From Anaerolineales bacterium (GTDB lineage: Bacteria > Chloroflexota > Anaerolineae > Anaerolineales > E44-bin32): a stretch of DNA of 64,000 nucleotides. Shown here one piece after another: positions 15,622 to 30,737 of the stretch; positions within the stretch are counted from its first letter, which is position 1; every line of letters begins with the position of its first letter. A program made the position numbers and the translations under genes. Where the stretch lies: contig JARRPX010000023.1 in assembly GCA_037382465.1 (NCBI GenBank), positions 1-64,000 on the forward strand, read 5' to 3'. A model generated the notes under the pieces. The model had not been told where the DNA came from. It ran no database searches and saw only the letters and a list, made by a program, of their open reading frames with translations.

Positions 15622-15640
15622 TGCGCTGGAAAGACGATTG

Positions 15641-18160
15641 ATGTTCAAGCGCAGCCCACGCAGCGAGCCGCCATACGGACCCGGCGCGCCGACCTCGGAT
15701 ACCAGCGAGGTGGTGCCGATCGCCGCCGTCACCGAGGACATGCTCGTCACGCATAAGGGCACGTTTCTCACCATGCTCGAGATGCCGCCCGTCGACATGG
15801 GCGCCGGCGGCCTGGATTTCAGCCACTGGATCCGCAAGCATCAATCCGCGCTGGATCGGATTCCGCCGGGGATCAACATGCAGGTCACGGTGCAGCTCGA
15901 GCCCCGCGATCCACAGCCCGATCTCGAGTATTTCATCGACCGCGCGCAGCGCTGGCACGCGCTGGCCAACGACGAAAACTTGCCAGCGCGTGCGCGCGGT
16001 CAGGCGGGCAGGATTTCCGCCGCCGCCCAGCAGATGACCGCCTTCGTGGCACTCTGGTTCGATCGATCGCTGCCCATCACCTGGCGGACGATCTACACGC
16101 TCTTCTGGAAGGCGCCGCTCCAGATCTCGAAACATCCGCTTTTTTCGCTGCGCAAAGACGGCGGCCGAAACCTCGGGCACCTCGATTTCGTCCCGGAGGC
16201 ACGCCAGGCGCTCTCGCGGACGCACGGGATCGTGTCCGCTGCTTTCCGGGAAGCCGGACTTCCCCTGCGGGATTTGACGCCCGGAGAAATGTGCCAGATC
16301 GTCTGGCGCGGCCTGCATCCGGCGACCAACGGGCTCGCCACCGACCAGGCCTCCGAAATCGCCGTCGCCATGGCCAAAGGGCAGCGAGCGCACCGGCAGC
16401 AAACGCCCTCCGCCGGCGATTTTCGTCCCGGCATGGCCGCCGATGAACTCGCCGACCTGCTCGCGCCGGGCACGATACTCGAGCGGGAAACGTGCCTCGA
16501 AATCGACGGCGTCCGTATGGCCGGCTACTACGTCCATGATTTTCAACCCAACCGCGTGGCCATGGTCCACCGCCTGGCCAACCTGCCCGGCGGCTGGACG
16601 GGCAGCCTGCTGATGGAATTCGCCGAACCGGCGTCCGTTGTGTCCAACCTGCGCGAGCGCGAAGTGCAGCTCTCTGCCACCGAGCTGGTCAAACAAAGCC
16701 AGGGCATGCTGCGCAGCTTTTCCAACCAGCAAGAAGTGGCCGCGGTCCAGCAGCAGCGCATGTCGCTGGAAACCATCGGCAAGACGCCGGTCTTCATCCG
16801 CTTCTTCATCATGCGCACGGCGCCCAACGAAGAAGTCCTGCAGCAGCGTACCCGCGACCTCGAAAGCCTGCTGACGACCATCGGCGCGTCCTACGTTCCC
16901 GCACGCTACAACCAGCTGCGCCTCTGGGTAAGCTCGCTGCCGACGAGCGAATTGACGATGAAGACGAAGTCCAGGAACATGACGGCGGACAGCCTGGCAA
17001 CGTTTTTCTGGCCCGCACAGCGCCGTTACATGGAAGAAAAAGGCGTTTATCTGGGCATCGATCAGGCGACGCTGCTGCCGATCCGCGTGGATCCGTTCGG
17101 CGACTACCTGGAAAAGACCCCGACGTTTTTGGCGCTGGGAAGGCCCGGCGCGGGGAAATCGGTTTGGCTGCGCACGATGATGCTCTCGGCGCTCGTCGCC
17201 GGCGACTCGGTCATGGCCATCGACATCGAGGGGGAGATGCAGCCGTTCTGCGATCGATACGGCGGACGCTACATCGAGATCGGCGGTTTCAGCAGCGAAC
17301 GCATCAACGTGCTCGACATCCCGCCCGACAGCGATAATCCACTGGAACACGGAACGAAACATCTCGTGGCGTTCTGCGAAGCCATCCGCGGCAGCCCGAT
17401 ACCCAAAGGACCGGAATGGAATGCGCTGGCGGAAGCCTATAGACTGACACTCGAGGATCGGGGAATGATCGATCCCATCAGCGGGGAACCTCTTTCTGCG
17501 TGGCGCTGCGAAGAAGCTCCGCTGCTCAACGACGTCGCCCGTATCCTGGCGCAGCTCAAGCGGCCGGAAGCGGCCTCCATTTCCGAGATGCTCCACCCGT
17601 ATACGGACGGTCTCTACAAAGAATACTTCAACATCCAAACCACGTTCGACGTGCGGAAGGAGCGACTGGTCATTTTCGGCATGCGCCACGTCAACGAATC
17701 CGGCACCTGGGACGATCAGGAGCTTCAAGTCTATCTGTGGCAGGTAATGGGTTTCATCTGGAGCGAGGTGCTGCGCCGGAATCTGGAAAATCCGCGGGCT
17801 GCGAATCACGTGATGCTGGATGAAGTGTGGGCCTTGCTCCGGGCGCCGGGGGGCGCGGCGGCGATCGAGAACATTGCCCGCCGTTCGCGAAAAAGGCGCG
17901 CCGCACTGTGGATGGCGTCGCAGCAGATCGGTGAGTTTCTCGATAAAGAACACGGCCGGAAGATCCTCTCCGTTGTGGGAACCAAACTACTCATGGGGGT
18001 CAGTCCCTTCGAAGCGAACCGCATGCGCGATCCGTTCGATTTGTCCGACTACCTGATCGATACGCTGACCAAACTCGGCTACGGGGAAGCCATGCTGCGC
18101 ATGGCCAACGCCGTGCTGAAAGTGTGGATCCGTTCACCCAAGGAACTGGAGCTGTACTGA
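15641..18160 (+). CDS. VirB4/TraC-type type IV secretion ATPase
   Basis: An 839-aa ATPase of the VirB4/TraE/TrbE family. Walker A GRPGAGKS lies at about residues 500-507, and Walker B (VMLDEVWALL) with a following arginine-rich stretch at about 723-750. The N-terminal half is the family's usual poorly conserved domain. These enzymes energise assembly of type IV secretion channels and pili. ATG 15641 is used, with GGAAAG upstream. It pairs with the PrgI-like gene before it. No VirD4 coupling ATPase or relaxase accompanies it, so substrate transfer of DNA is not supported. Confidence 0.88.
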   Translation: MFKRSPRSEPPYGPGAPTSDTSEVVPIAAVTEDMLVTHKGTFLTMLEMPPVDMGAGGLDFSHWIRKHQSALDRIPPGINMQVTVQLEPRDPQPDLEYFIDRAQRWHALANDENLPARARGQAGRISAAAQQMTAFVALWFDRSLPITWRTIYTLFWKAPLQISKHPLFSLRKDGGRNLGHLDFVPEARQALSRTHGIVSAAFREAGLPLRDLTPGEMCQIVWRGLHPATNGLATDQASEIAVAMAKGQRAHRQQTPSAGDFRPGMAADELADLLAPGTILERETCLEIDGVRMAGYYVHDFQPNRVAMVHRLANLPGGWTGSLLMEFAEPASVVSNLREREVQLSATELVKQSQGMLRSFSNQQEVAAVQQQRMSLETIGKTPVFIRFFIMRTAPNEEVLQQRTRDLESLLTTIGASYVPARYNQLRLWVSSLPTSELTMKTKSRNMTADSLATFFWPAQRRYMEEKGVYLGIDQATLLPIRVDPFGDYLEKTPTFLALGRPGAGKSVWLRTMMLSALVAGDSVMAIDIEGEMQPFCDRYGGRYIEIGGFSSERINVLDIPPDSDNPLEHGTKHLVAFCEAIRGSPIPKGPEWNALAEAYRLTLEDRGMIDPISGEPLSAWRCEEAPLLNDVARILAQLKRPEAASISEMLHPYTDGLYKEYFNIQTTFDVRKERLVIFGMRHVNESGTWDDQELQVYLWQVMGFIWSEVLRRNLENPRAANHVMLDEVWALLRAPGGAAAIENIARRSRKRRAALWMASQQIGEFLDKEHGRKILSVVGTKLLMGVSPFEANRMRDPFDLSDYLIDTLTKLGYGEAMLRMANAVLKVWIRSPKELELY

Positions 18161-19156: not shown

Positions 19157-19444
19157 ATGTCGATCCTGGAAATCAAGAGCTCCGACGCGCGGATGAACTT
19201 TCGTGATCTTCTGGACAGCGTGATGACAGGAGACAACGACATCATGATTCTGCGTAACGGGAAACAAATCGCAGCGATTATTCCGGCGGAAGATTACGTT
19301 GAAATCCGAGAAGAACTTGAAGATCTGCGCTTGTCACGAATTGCCGATGATTCCTATGACGAGTACTTGGCAGATAAAGAAGCGGCCAGATCATATAACG
19401 AGTTTAGCGCTGATTTGATCGGCGCTGGAGAGGAGCATGCCTGA
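19157..19444 (+). CDS. Phd/YefM-family antitoxin
   Basis: A 95-aa antitoxin. The N-terminal region (SDARMNFRDLLDSVMTGDNDIMILRNGKQIAAIIPAEDY) is a standard Phd/YefM DNA-binding and dimerisation domain. The Asp/Glu-rich C-terminal half would wrap the toxin. AAAGGAGAAGG precedes the ATG. It overlaps the toxin gene by 8 bases and lies behind a promoter-operator that it probably represses. Confidence 0.88.
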   Translation: MSILEIKSSDARMNFRDLLDSVMTGDNDIMILRNGKQIAAIIPAEDYVEIREELEDLRLSRIADDSYDEYLADKEAARSYNEFSADLIGAGEEHA

Positions 19445-19721
19445 GAAAGCGGGGAAATATTATCTACTGGTGACCCCACGAGCGCAAAGGAGTCTCAATC
19501 GACTTGCGAGAGACAGGGGCATGTTTGTGAGGATTGACAAGCGGATTAAATCGCTGTCGCAGAATCCCCGCCCAACAGGATGCAAAAAACTGAAGGCCTC
19601 AAAACACGGAAATGTCTATCGTCTAAGAGAAGGGGATTGGAGAATCCTGTATGCAGTTGAAGACGATATTATAATCGTGCTCATCCTGGATGTGATTCGA
19701 AGAGACAAAGCGTACAGTTAA
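19437..19721 (+). CDS. relE: RelE/ParE-superfamily toxin
   Basis: A 94-aa toxin of the RelE/ParE fold. Visible motifs are the N-terminal TPRAQRSLNRL helix, the NPRPTGCKKL segment, the VYRLREGDWRILYAV strands and the C-terminal DVIRRDKAY. The RxGDWRILY pattern favours a RelE-type ribosome-dependent mRNA interferase over a gyrase-targeting ParE. Coupled to the Phd-type antitoxin upstream. Looks intact. Confidence 0.87.
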   Translation: MPEKAGKYYLLVTPRAQRSLNRLARDRGMFVRIDKRIKSLSQNPRPTGCKKLKASKHGNVYRLREGDWRILYAVEDDIIIVLILDVIRRDKAYS

Positions 19722-23684: not shown

Positions 23685-25937
23685 TCATTCTTCTTCTGCG
23701 TAGAACGCCAGCCCGATTACACCCGGTCCTGCATGTACCCCCATGACGGGCGTAAATGCACAGGTGAAAACCTCGACGCAGTCGAAACGCTCTTCGACTC
23801 GTTTCCGCAAGTCGGCGGCGCTTTCCGGCGCGTCTGCGTGCAGCACGGCAACATGCACCGGACGAGAGGCGACGCGCTTCTCCATCTCGTTCAGCATGAT
23901 CCGGATTGCGCGGTTTGTCGTGCGGGGTTTCGCCAGCACGTCGACAACACCATCATTAATAAAGAGTATGGGTTTAATCTTCAGCGCCACACCCAGCAGC
24001 GCCTCCGCCTTGCCAATTCGGCCACCACGCTGAAGGTATTTGAGGGTATCCAACATGGCAAACACGAACACGCGCTTGCGGATGTCTTGCGCCACGCGTT
24101 GAATTGAATCTACCCCGAGCCCCTTGCTGGCCGCACGGGCTGCCGCGAGCGCCACAAAACCCGCGCCCATCGCAGCCGTGCCCGCGTCGACAACGTAGAC
24201 CTGAACCTGATCTTCAACCAAGCCTGCCGCCAGGCGCGCCGCAGAGATCACCCCGCTCAATCGATCGGGCAAGTGAATCGAAACGATCGCGTCTACCCCT
24301 TCACCAAGCTGTAGATAGGTTTGCAGGAAATCGCCAACGGAGGGGGCGGCGGTTGTAGGCGTACTCTTGCTGCTACGCAAGCGTTGATACACTTCGTCAG
24401 GGTCGATGTCGATACCGTCACGAAACACATGCTCGTCCCAGAGCAGGCTCACGGGTACGACCGTGATGTCATATTTATCCACGATTTCAGACGGCAGGTT
24501 GGAGGCGGAATCGGTCACGATGGCGATCTTGCCCACGCGCGTGCGGTCGTTCTTGTCGTCAGATGACGTTCTTTTCCTTTCGACGGCGACATTGCTCGAC
24601 GGGGAAATTGCCAACTCGAGCAGCGGTTCCGCTGTCGAAATGGTCTGCAGCGATTGTTGACCCACGGCGGCCAGTCCCCGTTTGAACCCTCTTCGACTCA
24701 AGACCGCCGTGATCACCAGAAACAGACCCAGAAACGTGAACATACGCTGAACCCCAAAAAGATCCGCCAATCCACCCAATATGGGGAGGGGAGCCATGGA
24801 CAACGCGTTGCTCAAGAATAGTTGTGTGGATATCACACGACCTCGCATGGGATCGGGGGTCCGCTCTTGAACGAGGGTGCGTGCCGGGATGACAACCATG
24901 GCCGCCCCTGCTCCTGAACACACAGCGATCAGCAGGAATAGAAGTAACGAAATACCCGAAAGCGCTCTTATGAGGGGAATAACTGCGAGGCCCACACCCA
25001 AAGTGAAAAGCCCTGCCCTGAGCCAGTCTTCCTCCTCAAATCTGCTCCCCAATCTCCCCAGCAACACGACGCCCAAACCAAATCCAAGGCCACCCGGTAC
25101 GGCAAGCAGGGGCATCTGCTCGATGGGAAAATCCCAGGCGCGGGACACCAATCCGGGCACCAGCGTCATAATGACGAGTATGACGCCCGACATCAAGACC
25201 AGGTAGGCAATCGAACTGCGCACGACGGGTTTGCCAACAATGAAACGCCATCCCGCCCGTAATTCTTCCCAGGCCACACCTCGCCGAGCACCTTGCACAT
25301 TGTCCAGCAATCTGCCGATCCGGTCGGGCAAACGCGAGTATGCCCAGGCGGCCAGAGTAAAGAGCAGCAATCCCACTACGCCTACGGTCGGCGCTCCACC
25401 CGCGTGAAGCAGCACCGGCGCCAGAACGACGGTTCCTGCGCCCTGGGCGCAGATCAGCGCCACCTGAACGATCGAATTCGCCGCAAGCAGTTGGTCATCT
25501 CCGACAGTGCGGGGAAGCACGGCATCCCTTGCGGACGCAGTGAGTTGGATAAGTGCTGAAAGCAGAAAATTACAGACGAAGATCGCGAGCAGAAGCAAAG
25601 GGTCCGACCGCAGCCAACGCGTGCCTGCAGTAAAAGCGAGGGTGGTCAACAGGCCGAGCGCATTACTTACCAGAAGCACCCGCCGCCGATCGTAACGATC
25701 GACCCAAACGCCCGCGAGCATCCCAAATATGAAACCCGGCAGCGATATCGAGAACATCATCACGCCCATGAGCGTGCTCGAGTGCGTGATTTCCTCGATA
25801 AGGACGACGGACGAAAAAAAGATGGCATAGGTTGCCGCGATGGAGGTGAACTGCGCTGCGCTCAATCGGAACAAGTGCACGTTCTTAAGCACGGACAGGG
25901 TCGATTCGGTGGTCGTTGTATTGGGTCTGCTGAACAT
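23685..25937 (-). CDS. MFS transporter fused to a DegV/FakB fatty-acid-binding domain
   Basis: A 750-aa fusion. Residues 1-430 form a 12-helix major facilitator, with the inter-helix motif DRYDRRR after helix 2 and a domain of the drug-efflux or NarK-like type. After a charged linker (about 430-468), residues 470-750 form a complete DegV/FakB domain: VTDSASNLP, STPTTAAPS, LSGVISAARLAA, KPILFINDG and VMGVHAGPGVIGLAF. FakB proteins bind a fatty acid and present it to FakA kinase. ATG 25937 has AGGGGAAG upstream. The fusion suggests that a fatty acid or lipid is moved and handed to, or taken from, the DegV domain. No FakA gene is nearby. Confidence 0.88.
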   Translation of the reverse strand: MFSRPNTTTTESTLSVLKNVHLFRLSAAQFTSIAATYAIFFSSVVLIEEITHSSTLMGVMMFSISLPGFIFGMLAGVWVDRYDRRRVLLVSNALGLLTTLAFTAGTRWLRSDPLLLLAIFVCNFLLSALIQLTASARDAVLPRTVGDDQLLAANSIVQVALICAQGAGTVVLAPVLLHAGGAPTVGVVGLLLFTLAAWAYSRLPDRIGRLLDNVQGARRGVAWEELRAGWRFIVGKPVVRSSIAYLVLMSGVILVIMTLVPGLVSRAWDFPIEQMPLLAVPGGLGFGLGVVLLGRLGSRFEEEDWLRAGLFTLGVGLAVIPLIRALSGISLLLFLLIAVCSGAGAAMVVIPARTLVQERTPDPMRGRVISTQLFLSNALSMAPLPILGGLADLFGVQRMFTFLGLFLVITAVLSRRGFKRGLAAVGQQSLQTISTAEPLLELAISPSSNVAVERKRTSSDDKNDRTRVGKIAIVTDSASNLPSEIVDKYDITVVPVSLLWDEHVFRDGIDIDPDEVYQRLRSSKSTPTTAAPSVGDFLQTYLQLGEGVDAIVSIHLPDRLSGVISAARLAAGLVEDQVQVYVVDAGTAAMGAGFVALAAARAASKGLGVDSIQRVAQDIRKRVFVFAMLDTLKYLQRGGRIGKAEALLGVALKIKPILFINDGVVDVLAKPRTTNRAIRIMLNEMEKRVASRPVHVAVLHADAPESAADLRKRVEERFDCVEVFTCAFTPVMGVHAGPGVIGLAFYAEEE

Positions 25938-27396: not shown

Positions 27397-28293
27397 ATGC
27401 ACGTCGTTGAAATTCACCATGTCGCAAAATCATTCGGGCCCGTACAGGCTGTTGCCGACGTATCTTTCGAGGTCGATCGCGGCGAAATATTCGGCTTGCT
27501 TGGACCCAATGGGGCCGGAAAGACGACCACCATACGTCTAATGCTGGACATCTTCAAGCCGGATCGGGGCACCGTCTCGATCCTGAACGGCCCAATGAAC
27601 GACGCCAAAGACGATCTCATCGGTTACATGCCGGAGGAACGCGGGCTGTATCAGGATACGCCGCTCGACCGCTGCTTGATCTATTTAAGTACACTCAAGG
27701 GACTTTCTACGGCCGAAGCGCAAAGCCGACTCGAGCCGTACCTGGAACGTTTCGATCTCGCAAAACACAAGCATAAAAAGGTGAAAGAGCTCAGTAAGGG
27801 CATGCAGCAGAAAGCGCAAATCATCAACACCATTCTGCACAAGCCGGAACTGGTGATCATCGATGAACCTTTCACCGCGCTCGACCCACTGAACACACAG
27901 TTGGTCAAGGATGTCATGCGTGAACTGCGCGATAAAGGAACCTCGATCCTCATGTCGACCCACCAAATGCACCAGGTGGAAGAACTCTGCGACCGCATCG
28001 TGCTCATCGACGAAGGGCGTGATGTCTTGTATGGGCCATTGGACGATATCCGCCGCCGATTTTCCGGACATGCGGTTCTGGTGCGCACTGCCGGCGAGCT
28101 GCCGCACATCGAAGGAGTCGTAGACGCGACGAGGCACAACAACGCCCAGAGGTTGACCCTGGCATCCGGCATCTCTCCACAGCAAGTCTTGCAAGACCTG
28201 ATCGCAAAAGATGTGACCATCGAGAAATTCGAGATCGCCGTCCCGACCCTGGATGAGATCTTCATCCGCGTGGTGAAGGAAGGAGATCAATAA
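27397..28293 (+). CDS. ABC-2 type exporter ATP-binding protein (NatA-like)
   Basis: A 298-aa ABC ATPase with Walker A GPNGAGKTTT, signature LSKGMQQKA and Walker B VIIDEPFTALDP, plus the C-terminal extension typical of NatA/DUF4162-type exporters. ATG 27397 has AAAGGGG 8 bases upstream, so it is preferred over the in-frame ATG at 27379. The stop overlaps the permease start (TAATG). With two following permeases it would form a sodium, drug or peptide exporter; the substrate cannot be read. Confidence 0.92.
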   Translation: MHVVEIHHVAKSFGPVQAVADVSFEVDRGEIFGLLGPNGAGKTTTIRLMLDIFKPDRGTVSILNGPMNDAKDDLIGYMPEERGLYQDTPLDRCLIYLSTLKGLSTAEAQSRLEPYLERFDLAKHKHKKVKELSKGMQQKAQIINTILHKPELVIIDEPFTALDPLNTQLVKDVMRELRDKGTSILMSTHQMHQVEELCDRIVLIDEGRDVLYGPLDDIRRRFSGHAVLVRTAGELPHIEGVVDATRHNNAQRLTLASGISPQQVLQDLIAKDVTIEKFEIAVPTLDEIFIRVVKEGDQ

Positions 28294-29466
28294 TGTCGAA
28301 GCTCTGGTTAATCGCAAAAGACGAATTCAGGCGCAACGTATACAAGAAGAGCTTCATCCTGGCGCTACTCAGCGTTCCACTCATGCTGGCTTTCAACGTC
28401 GGTATTGGGCTGATCGTTGAAAACATTGAAAAAAATCCCACACCGATCGGTTACGTCGACCATTCAGGGCTGCTGGATCACCCCATTCAAGCCTACGATG
28501 AGAATTCCTCCGATGCCGTCCCCATCATCGCTTTCGAATCTGAAGATGCGGCACGTGAGGCGCTGCTGGCAAAGGATATTCAAGCCTTTTATGTGCTTTC
28601 GGCGGACTACCGCACGACCTCGAACGTCGAATTGTATTACGTGGAGGAACCCGCAGCCAACGCCACGAGCCAGTGGTACGACTTTCTACAAACCAATTTG
28701 CTCGCGAATTATCCGCCCGATATCGCACACCGATTGATCGAGGGTACCCGCATGACCATACGGTCGCCGGGCGGGATTATCGAAATACCCGCCGGAGGAC
28801 CCACGCTGAGTTCAATGCTGCCCTTGATTACCAGCGTGGCTTTTGTGTTCCTGCTTCTCTTCAGCTCGGGATACTTGATGAGCGGGGTGATCACGGAGAA
28901 AGAGAATCGTACGATTGAGGTGATAGTGACCTCGGTCTCCACGAACGATCTGGTCGTCGGCAAGGTGCTGGGCATCGTCGCCATCAGCCTCACCCAGTTG
29001 ACCACCTGGATTCTCATCGCTGTGCTCACCATCGCCGTCGGGGGGAACGTGTTGGGATTGACGTGGTTGCAGGACCTGTCAATCAACTGGACCGCCATCG
29101 CGAAAGTGGTCGTGATTGCCCTGCCGTCCTACGTTCTCGCAGCCGGATTGATGTTCACTGTCGGATCGACGCTGACTGAAGCCCCGGAAGGTCAGGCGGT
29201 AGGGTCGTTGTTCTTTATGCTTCACATACTGCCTCGGTACGCTTCCCTTCACGGCACTGCTCACTACAGGCTTGCGCAGCATTTTCACCGACATCCCACT
29301 GTGGCAAATCACACTCAGCGTCGCGGTGCAAACGCTGTGCGCCGCCGGCTCCTTGTGGTTGGCCGGCCGCGCCTTCCGGCTGGGAATGCTGCGCTACGGC
29401 CAGCGATTGCGCATCCGCGAACTCTTCCGACGACAACCCGCTCTGGAAGAAAGGAAGACGTCATGA
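28293..29466 (+). pseudogene. ABC-2 permease 1 (NatB-like), frameshifted with internal deletion
   Basis: The first 310 residues read as a normal ABC-2 permease (N-terminal membrane segment, large extracytoplasmic region, then the membrane block with GVITEKENRTIEVI). After GSLFFMLHILP near 29236 the frame becomes nonsense. The true C-terminus continues in the +1 frame from about 29242 (LPFTALLTTGLRSIF onward) to a stop at 29466. Compared with the paralogue downstream, about 17-20 residues are missing at the junction. The original frame runs on by chance into permease 2, creating a false 814-aa fusion. Real mutation or assembly error cannot be told apart here. Confidence 0.8.
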
Positions 29467-30737
29467 AAATCAAAACCGGGCTCGTTATCCGCCACGAGCT
29501 GACCTCAACCCTGCAAAGAAAATCTTTCCTGTTCATGGCGTTCGGGGTCCCCATCCTGGTCATACTGATCTTCACCGTAGTCAACTTGATCAAGAAGGAT
29601 ACTTCAGCGGTGAAAGAGCAAGCCGCCCCGGACATGAGCGAGTTGGAGGTTGAGGGCTACGTGGATCAGGCGGGATTGATCAAAACGCTTCCCCAGGATC
29701 TTCCTGCCGGAGTACTGGTGCCCTTCGCAACAGAAGCCGCTGCGCAACTTGCCCTCGACGACGAAGAGATCAGCGCCTACTACATCATCCCCCATGACTA
29801 TATCGAAAGCGGCGAATTGATCTACGTGCATCCCGATCCGTCACCCAGTATGTCGGACAGCCAGGAATGGACCATGAAACTGACGCTGACGTTGAATATG
29901 TTGAATGGAGATCAAGCCCTGGCCGCCAAAGTCTGGAATCCAATGAACCTGCACGCCACCAACCTCAATCCTGAAGCGCAATCGCGTGCCTATGGGGAAG
30001 AGGATTGCTCCACACCGGGCGGTTCCTGCTCGAACGCATTGGTCGAAATGCTGCCCATGATCATGGTGATTCTCTTTTTCGTGCTCATCAACGTCAGTTC
30101 GGGCTTGCTCATCGGCAGCGTAGCCAACGAAAAGAAGAACCGGGTCATAGAAATTCTGATGGCCTCCATACCCCCCGGGGAACTCCTTGCAGGCAAGATC
30201 GTCGGACTGGGAATCGCCGGGATACTACAATCTGCTGCCTGGATCGGCACCATTTATGCATTGTTGAAATTCGGCGGCAGCACCCTGGGTTTGCCCCAGG
30301 AACTCAACATCCCGACCTCGATCATCACCTGGGGCATTGTCTACTTTCTGCTCGGATTCGGCATCTACGCCAGCTTGATGGCCGGCGCAGGCGCATTGGT
30401 CCCGGATCAGAAAGCCGCTGCGTCGGCGGTCTGGCTGATCATCATGCCGCTGATGCTGGGCTATATAATCGTCGTTACCCCGATCGGACAAAGCGATCCA
30501 AACGGCTTACTCACTACAGCGGTTAGTCTATTCCCCCTGACTGCTCCCGTTGCGATGATCATGCGCCTGACGGTTGGAGGGGTTCCGTTCTGGCAATTGC
30601 CCCTCGGCGCCCTGTTTATGGTAATGACCGTGGTGTTCGTCGTGCGCGGAGCTGCACGGATGTTCCAGGCGCAGAACCTGCTCTCAGGACAGCCCTTCTC
30701 AGCCCGCCGGTACTTCGCCGCCCTGTTCGGCCGCTAA
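29463..30737 (+). CDS. ABC-2 permease 2 (NatB-like)
   Basis: A 424-aa permease with an N-terminal membrane helix, an extracytoplasmic domain of about 150 residues and a six-helix C-terminal block. The conserved GSVANEKKNRVIEILMASI segment mirrors the one in permease 1, so the two are paralogues. ATG 29463 has AAAGGAAG upstream and overlaps the proper stop of permease 1 by ATGA, which supports this start rather than a fusion. It probably forms a heterodimer with permease 1 above the ATPase. Confidence 0.88.
   Translation: MKIKTGLVIRHELTSTLQRKSFLFMAFGVPILVILIFTVVNLIKKDTSAVKEQAAPDMSELEVEGYVDQAGLIKTLPQDLPAGVLVPFATEAAAQLALDDEEISAYYIIPHDYIESGELIYVHPDPSPSMSDSQEWTMKLTLTLNMLNGDQALAAKVWNPMNLHATNLNPEAQSRAYGEEDCSTPGGSCSNALVEMLPMIMVILFFVLINVSSGLLIGSVANEKKNRVIEILMASIPPGELLAGKIVGLGIAGILQSAAWIGTIYALLKFGGSTLGLPQELNIPTSIITWGIVYFLLGFGIYASLMAGAGALVPDQKAAASAVWLIIMPLMLGYIIVVTPIGQSDPNGLLTTAVSLFPLTAPVAMIMRLTVGGVPFWQLPLGALFMVMTVVFVVRGAARMFQAQNLLSGQPFSARRYFAALFGR

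Follow-up and report, generated by a model that had tools for sequence, protein, structure and literature searches.

A single open reading frame joining an MFS transporter to a DegV/FakB-type domain in an Anaerolineales genome, a candidate for lipid entry into the Fak pathway

In E. coli, LplT and Aas form a complex that is proposed to pass flipped lysolipid to the enzyme (PMC11416262). In FakB1 of S. aureus, the fatty acid is held in a network that runs Ser171-His270-Thr62-carboxylate-Ser95, while Arg173 is required for catalysis and Arg205 for contact with FakA and the membrane (PMC8892158). Here we analyse a stretch of 64,000 nucleotides (the window) from an Anaerolineales bacterium, in which a transporter of the major facilitator superfamily (MFS) and a DegV domain are encoded together. 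We give somewhat better than even odds that this gene encodes a lipid-handling MFS transporter fused to a FakB-type fatty-acid carrier, which would feed FakA and then PlsY.

Layout and occurrence of the fused gene

The gene, at 23685-25937 on the minus strand, reads as a single open frame of 750 codons without a frame break, and the search of its own genome matched the whole frame with no internal stop. Pfam MFS_1 is found at residues 26-380 (3e-30, 106 bits against a cut-off of 33.4), which places the first part in the MFS superfamily, and Pfam DegV (PF02645) is complete at residues 470-747 (profile positions 1-279 of 280, 6e-80, 269 bits against a cut-off of 27). The one-frame fusion of an MFS transporter and a complete DegV domain, with which the original prediction began, is therefore confirmed (Table 1). 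Judged by the composition of the contig, which is like that of the other contigs of the genome, contamination is unlikely. Among the matches listed in a search with ribose-5-phosphate isomerase, there was no other genome of the same family. Elsewhere in the window, two overlapping small genes at 19157-19721 on the plus strand, Phd-type antitoxin-like and RelE-type toxin-like as judged by eye, lie downstream of a VirB4-like ATPase (15638-18160).

Table 1. Features of the fused gene in the window
Feature	Position	Strand	Evidence
MFS transporter part, residues 1-418	24684..25937	-	Pfam MFS_1; NCBIfam TIGR00900 below cut-off; hydropathy peaks; 17-row clade
Hydrophilic linker, residues 419-467, outside the ends of MFS and DegV homologues	24537..24683	-	
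GTG codon of Val468, possible former or internal start codon	24534..24536	-	DegV alignment column
DegV/FakB-type fatty-acid-binding domain (predicted), residues 469-750	23688..24533	-	PF02645, TIGR00762, FakB-chain alignments, residue mapping
Stop codon of the fused gene	23685..23687	-	

Because the closest relatives of the MFS part end just past the last helix, residues ~419-467 are extra. Val468, at the start of the DegV domain, has a GTG codon and stands in an alignment column that is Met in 48 of 93 aligned DegVs, mostly as their start. The fused gene may thus have arisen when a stop upstream of a once separate degV was lost, which suggests that the linker is made up of what was once the end of the MFS and the intergenic sequence behind it. 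These observations bear on the strongest alternative, namely that the two parts are separate or separately translated genes serving one lipid pathway as two proteins, the single frame being due to an error of sequencing or assembly, or else to a stop codon lost very recently. The alternative gains from the position of Val468 and from the finding of the fusion in only one of the genomes sampled. A random linker of 54 codons would stay open with a chance of about 0.12, so that the open linker in itself does little to prove a true fusion. Within the same window, at 28293-30737 on the plus strand, an 814-codon frame joins two ABC-2 permeases, and its residues ~310-395 read as out-of-frame sequence; this joint is likely a frameshift (error or decay) and not a true fusion. 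On the other hand, the linker is crossed without a change of frame: over residues 415-469 no frame has a coding score above that of frame 0, which is equalled in a single stretch (450-465) and is otherwise the highest. GC3 hardly varies (0.66 in the MFS part, 0.69 in the linker and 0.66 in the DegV part), and the composition match to the rest of the genome also speaks against an error. Internal initiation at the GTG of Val468 is possible, though the sequence before it shows no clear ribosome-binding site. Among the neighbourhoods of relatives examined, none has mfs and then degV in that order as separate genes. Taken together, we regard separate genes as unlikely, if still a reading to be reckoned with, and the favoured reading remains a true fusion of transporter and carrier.

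The MFS-DegV architecture was also sought in other genomes, as the original prediction had proposed, but among those sampled it is seen in this genome alone. The searches covered 60 relatives, 400 genomes of the phylum (whole protein), 396 genomes of the class (MFS part), 48 genomes of the order of G777, which holds the closest separate relatives, and two genomes of the order of G489. These sets overlap, and with handles running up to about G805 they amount to roughly 800 other genomes; they are samples, for which some runs scored few candidates per genome and the best matches were listed. Among the matches listed from these ~800 genomes, a sample with no genome of the same genus, no second one-frame MFS-DegV fusion was found. 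Scans of genome contigs returned two distant DegVs only, those of viral contigs no match, and those of plasmids, among the matches listed, DegV only. The literature that we searched holds no description of an MFS-DegV fusion. Several candidates were rejected. In G303:C96, an apparent MFS and DegV across a stop, the upstream frame has no match to the MFS of the window; the 1446-codon frame around a DegV in G633:C19 is accompanied by long opposite-strand frames and is read as overlapping noise; and the long MFS frames (862-866 aa) in G501, G525 and G474 are of another kind, G501 being an MFS-glycosyltransferase by Pfam and the others matching its glycosyltransferase part.

The DegV half and the Fak pathway

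The DegV half belongs to the DegV/FakB family by TIGR00762 (NCBIfam; 295 bits against a cut-off of 99.7) and falls below the FakB1 equivalog model NF038249 (190 bits against 350). For mapping of the pocket, it was aligned with the chain of 5woo, which we take to be S. aureus FakB1. The numbering of this chain agrees with PMC8892158, and T529, S561, R640, R672 and H735 of the window protein align with FakB1 T62, S95, R173, R205 and H270, respectively. The position of FakB1 Ser171 is Gly638 in the window protein and is likewise Gly in FakB2. Thus, the FakB-type Ser/Thr and His residues on which the original prediction had staked the fatty-acid pocket are kept in the alignment, at the carboxylate, latch and FakA-contact positions tested. 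The full set of T, S, R, R and H is present in 63 of the 93 DegVs. Two of the closest DegVs, the first copies in G777 and G010, have Ala instead of His, so that not every member of the group can be assumed to bind fatty acids. G010, which belongs to the same family as the window genome, carries three tandem DegVs (L237:1002-4088), two of them in the closest DegV group; the first of the three has Phe for Thr in addition to Ala for His.

A fakA homologue, the other component that had been looked for, is encoded elsewhere in the genome with all three domains (Dak2, FakA-like_M and FakA-like_C), and PlsX and two PlsY are also encoded away from the fused gene. The own-genome fakA is followed by two DegVs and then recG (L097:4192-10187), and the first of these DegVs is without most of the residues that hold the fatty acid. 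In the tree of 93 DegVs, the window DegV belongs to a group of five rows (98/91), the others being the DegV found in the G489 cluster, one DegV of G777 from a degV-degV-plsY-plsY cluster, and two of G010; the seven other DegVs of its own genome are far from it. Within a wider clade of 29 rows, 12 of 28 members have PlsY no farther than 1.5 kb away, compared with 2 of 64 other DegVs.

The MFS half and the neighbourhoods of its relatives

The MFS part is DHA3-like, with motif A (GVWVDRYDRRR) after helix 2, and its hydropathy profile has 11 peaks, one of them broad enough for two helices. Among the NCBIfam models it scores highest, though below cut-off, against TIGR00900, which describes an H+ antiporter, and there are weaker matches to the EntS and Mef exporters. 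The LplT model (PRK11195) gives 21 bits against a cut-off of 297, and the model of MFS-acyltransferase Aas fusions (PRK08633) is matched weakly by the MFS part alone, the C-terminal domain here being DegV; since both matches are below the cut-offs of these models, the fused MFS is a member of neither family. In a tree of 83 MFS sequences, it lies in a 17-row clade (100/97) whose other genes come from families of the class different from its own. None of the MFS genes sampled from its own family and order is placed in this clade, and the branch that leads to E. coli LplT is very long.

Of the 16 other members of the MFS clade, 10 have a gene for DegV, PlsY or a patatin-like phospholipase no more than 5 kb away, on the same strand every time. 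The same holds at 1 of 44 loci in the sister clade and at none of 20 control MFS loci (Fisher p 5e-8). This p-value overstates the case because these families were picked post hoc, after viewing the neighbourhoods, and some clade members are close kin. A safer measure is the number of lineages: G489, G501/G525, G523/G471, G466, G735/G651, G522 and G777. The remaining 6 of 16 members, some on short contigs, have none of these neighbours within 5 kb. The clearest cluster is that of G489, in which the overlapping genes degV, mfs and plsY share a strand. The gene order is degV-degV-plsY-alpha/beta hydrolase-mfs in G501 and G525 and patatin-mfs-plsY in G735, and patatin adjoins mfs in G523, G466, G471 and G651. 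The alpha/beta hydrolase between plsY and the MFS (L132:3418-4299 and L133:6516-7385) may have the role that patatin has elsewhere. In G777, the nearest separate relatives of both halves, an MFS (54%) and, in the degV-degV-plsY-plsY cluster, a DegV (56%), are encoded on different contigs. The window that holds the fused gene has no plsY or patatin. By these neighbourhood counts, both halves come separately from PlsY-linked families. Separate mfs and degV genes in relatives, which were half of what was to count against the original prediction, do exist, yet in shared clusters. With PlsY, DegV and lipases encoded around relatives of the two halves, a lipid function of the MFS appears likely.

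The same data bear on two further alternatives. One is that the MFS expels fatty acids or lipid-like toxic compounds, which the DegV domain loads or senses. MFS pumps that guard against antimicrobial fatty acids are known in staphylococci, and the exporter-type model matches described above point the same way, but the neighbours PlsY, patatin and alpha/beta hydrolase of the relatives suit uptake or remodelling better, and we consider export rather improbable. A chance fusion of a drug-type MFS with a DegV tail, without functional coupling, would fit a single occurrence and weak MFS model matches, but is highly improbable given that separate relatives of both families cluster in several lineages.

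In the sister clade, an MGDG-synthase-like glycosyltransferase lies within 5 kb of the MFS at 19 of 44 loci and is fused to it in G501, G525 and G474. In the fused genes (L139:4117-6675, L140:941-3487 and L141:3127-5676) the glycosyltransferase resembles MGDG synthase/diglucosyl-diacylglycerol synthase, and the pairing is a candidate module for flipping or export of glycolipids.

Proposed route of the lipid and comparison with known systems

For the fusion of transporter and carrier that we favour, the following route may be proposed. The MFS, of the 12-helix type, would deliver either a lysophospholipid or a fatty acid to the inner leaflet. On the cytoplasmic side, the C-terminal DegV domain, tethered through a flexible linker some 50 residues long, would take up the free fatty acid and present it to FakA; in the case of a lysolipid, a cellular phospholipase would free the fatty acid. 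FakA would then convert it to acyl-phosphate, which PlsY would place on glycerol-3-phosphate. PlsY is the acyl-phosphate:glycerol-3-phosphate acyltransferase, and FakB is thought to take fatty acids directly from the bilayer. It is not evident that a flippase for fatty acids is required, given that free fatty acids can pass through bilayers by themselves. What is transported and in which direction, the physical hand-over, and the production of the full-length protein are inferred here. The original idea, in which the transporter carries its own fatty-acid carrier, is thus supported in part: the kept FakB residues, the FakA and the PlsY/lipase clusters speak in its favour, and the cargo of the MFS and its coupling to the carrier are the conjectural part. 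More tentatively, and with less than even confidence, we speculate that an MFS lipid transporter, FakB, PlsY and a phospholipase or hydrolase form an undescribed bacterial lipid-salvage module that leads from uptake to new phospholipid, with transporter and carrier fused in this genome. An MFS joined to FakB, together with the MFS/FakB/PlsY/lipase clusters, is a testable candidate for dedicated lipid entry into the Fak pathway, and it hints at the substrate class of this MFS clade, for which a proton antiporter is the best-matching curated model.

Among known architectures, the MFS-glycosyltransferase fusions are similar in that a sister MFS clade is fused or adjacent to a lipid enzyme, but they carry a glycolipid glycosyltransferase, whereas the window gene carries a fatty-acid carrier. 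The likeness to the FakAB system of S. aureus, with FakB1 and FakB2, lies in the complete DegV-family domain, the five functional residues of FakB1 and the FakA in the genome. In S. aureus, however, FakB is soluble and shuttles between the membrane and FakA, whereas the carrier here would be tethered to a transporter. LplT-Aas of E. coli resembles the fused protein in having an MFS that moves lipid inward, as is proposed here, coupled to a cytoplasmic lipid partner, which in E. coli is an acyltransferase/acyl-ACP synthetase and here a carrier of the Fak pathway. Of the analogy with LplT-Aas drawn by the original prediction, the shared logic stands as a proposal, but kinship does not carry it, since the MFS shows no more than a weak relationship to LplT or to the transporter portion of the MFS-acyltransferase fusions. 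By this analogy, the best reading is that the fused protein would work like LplT-Aas, with a Fak-pathway carrier in the place of the partner enzyme.
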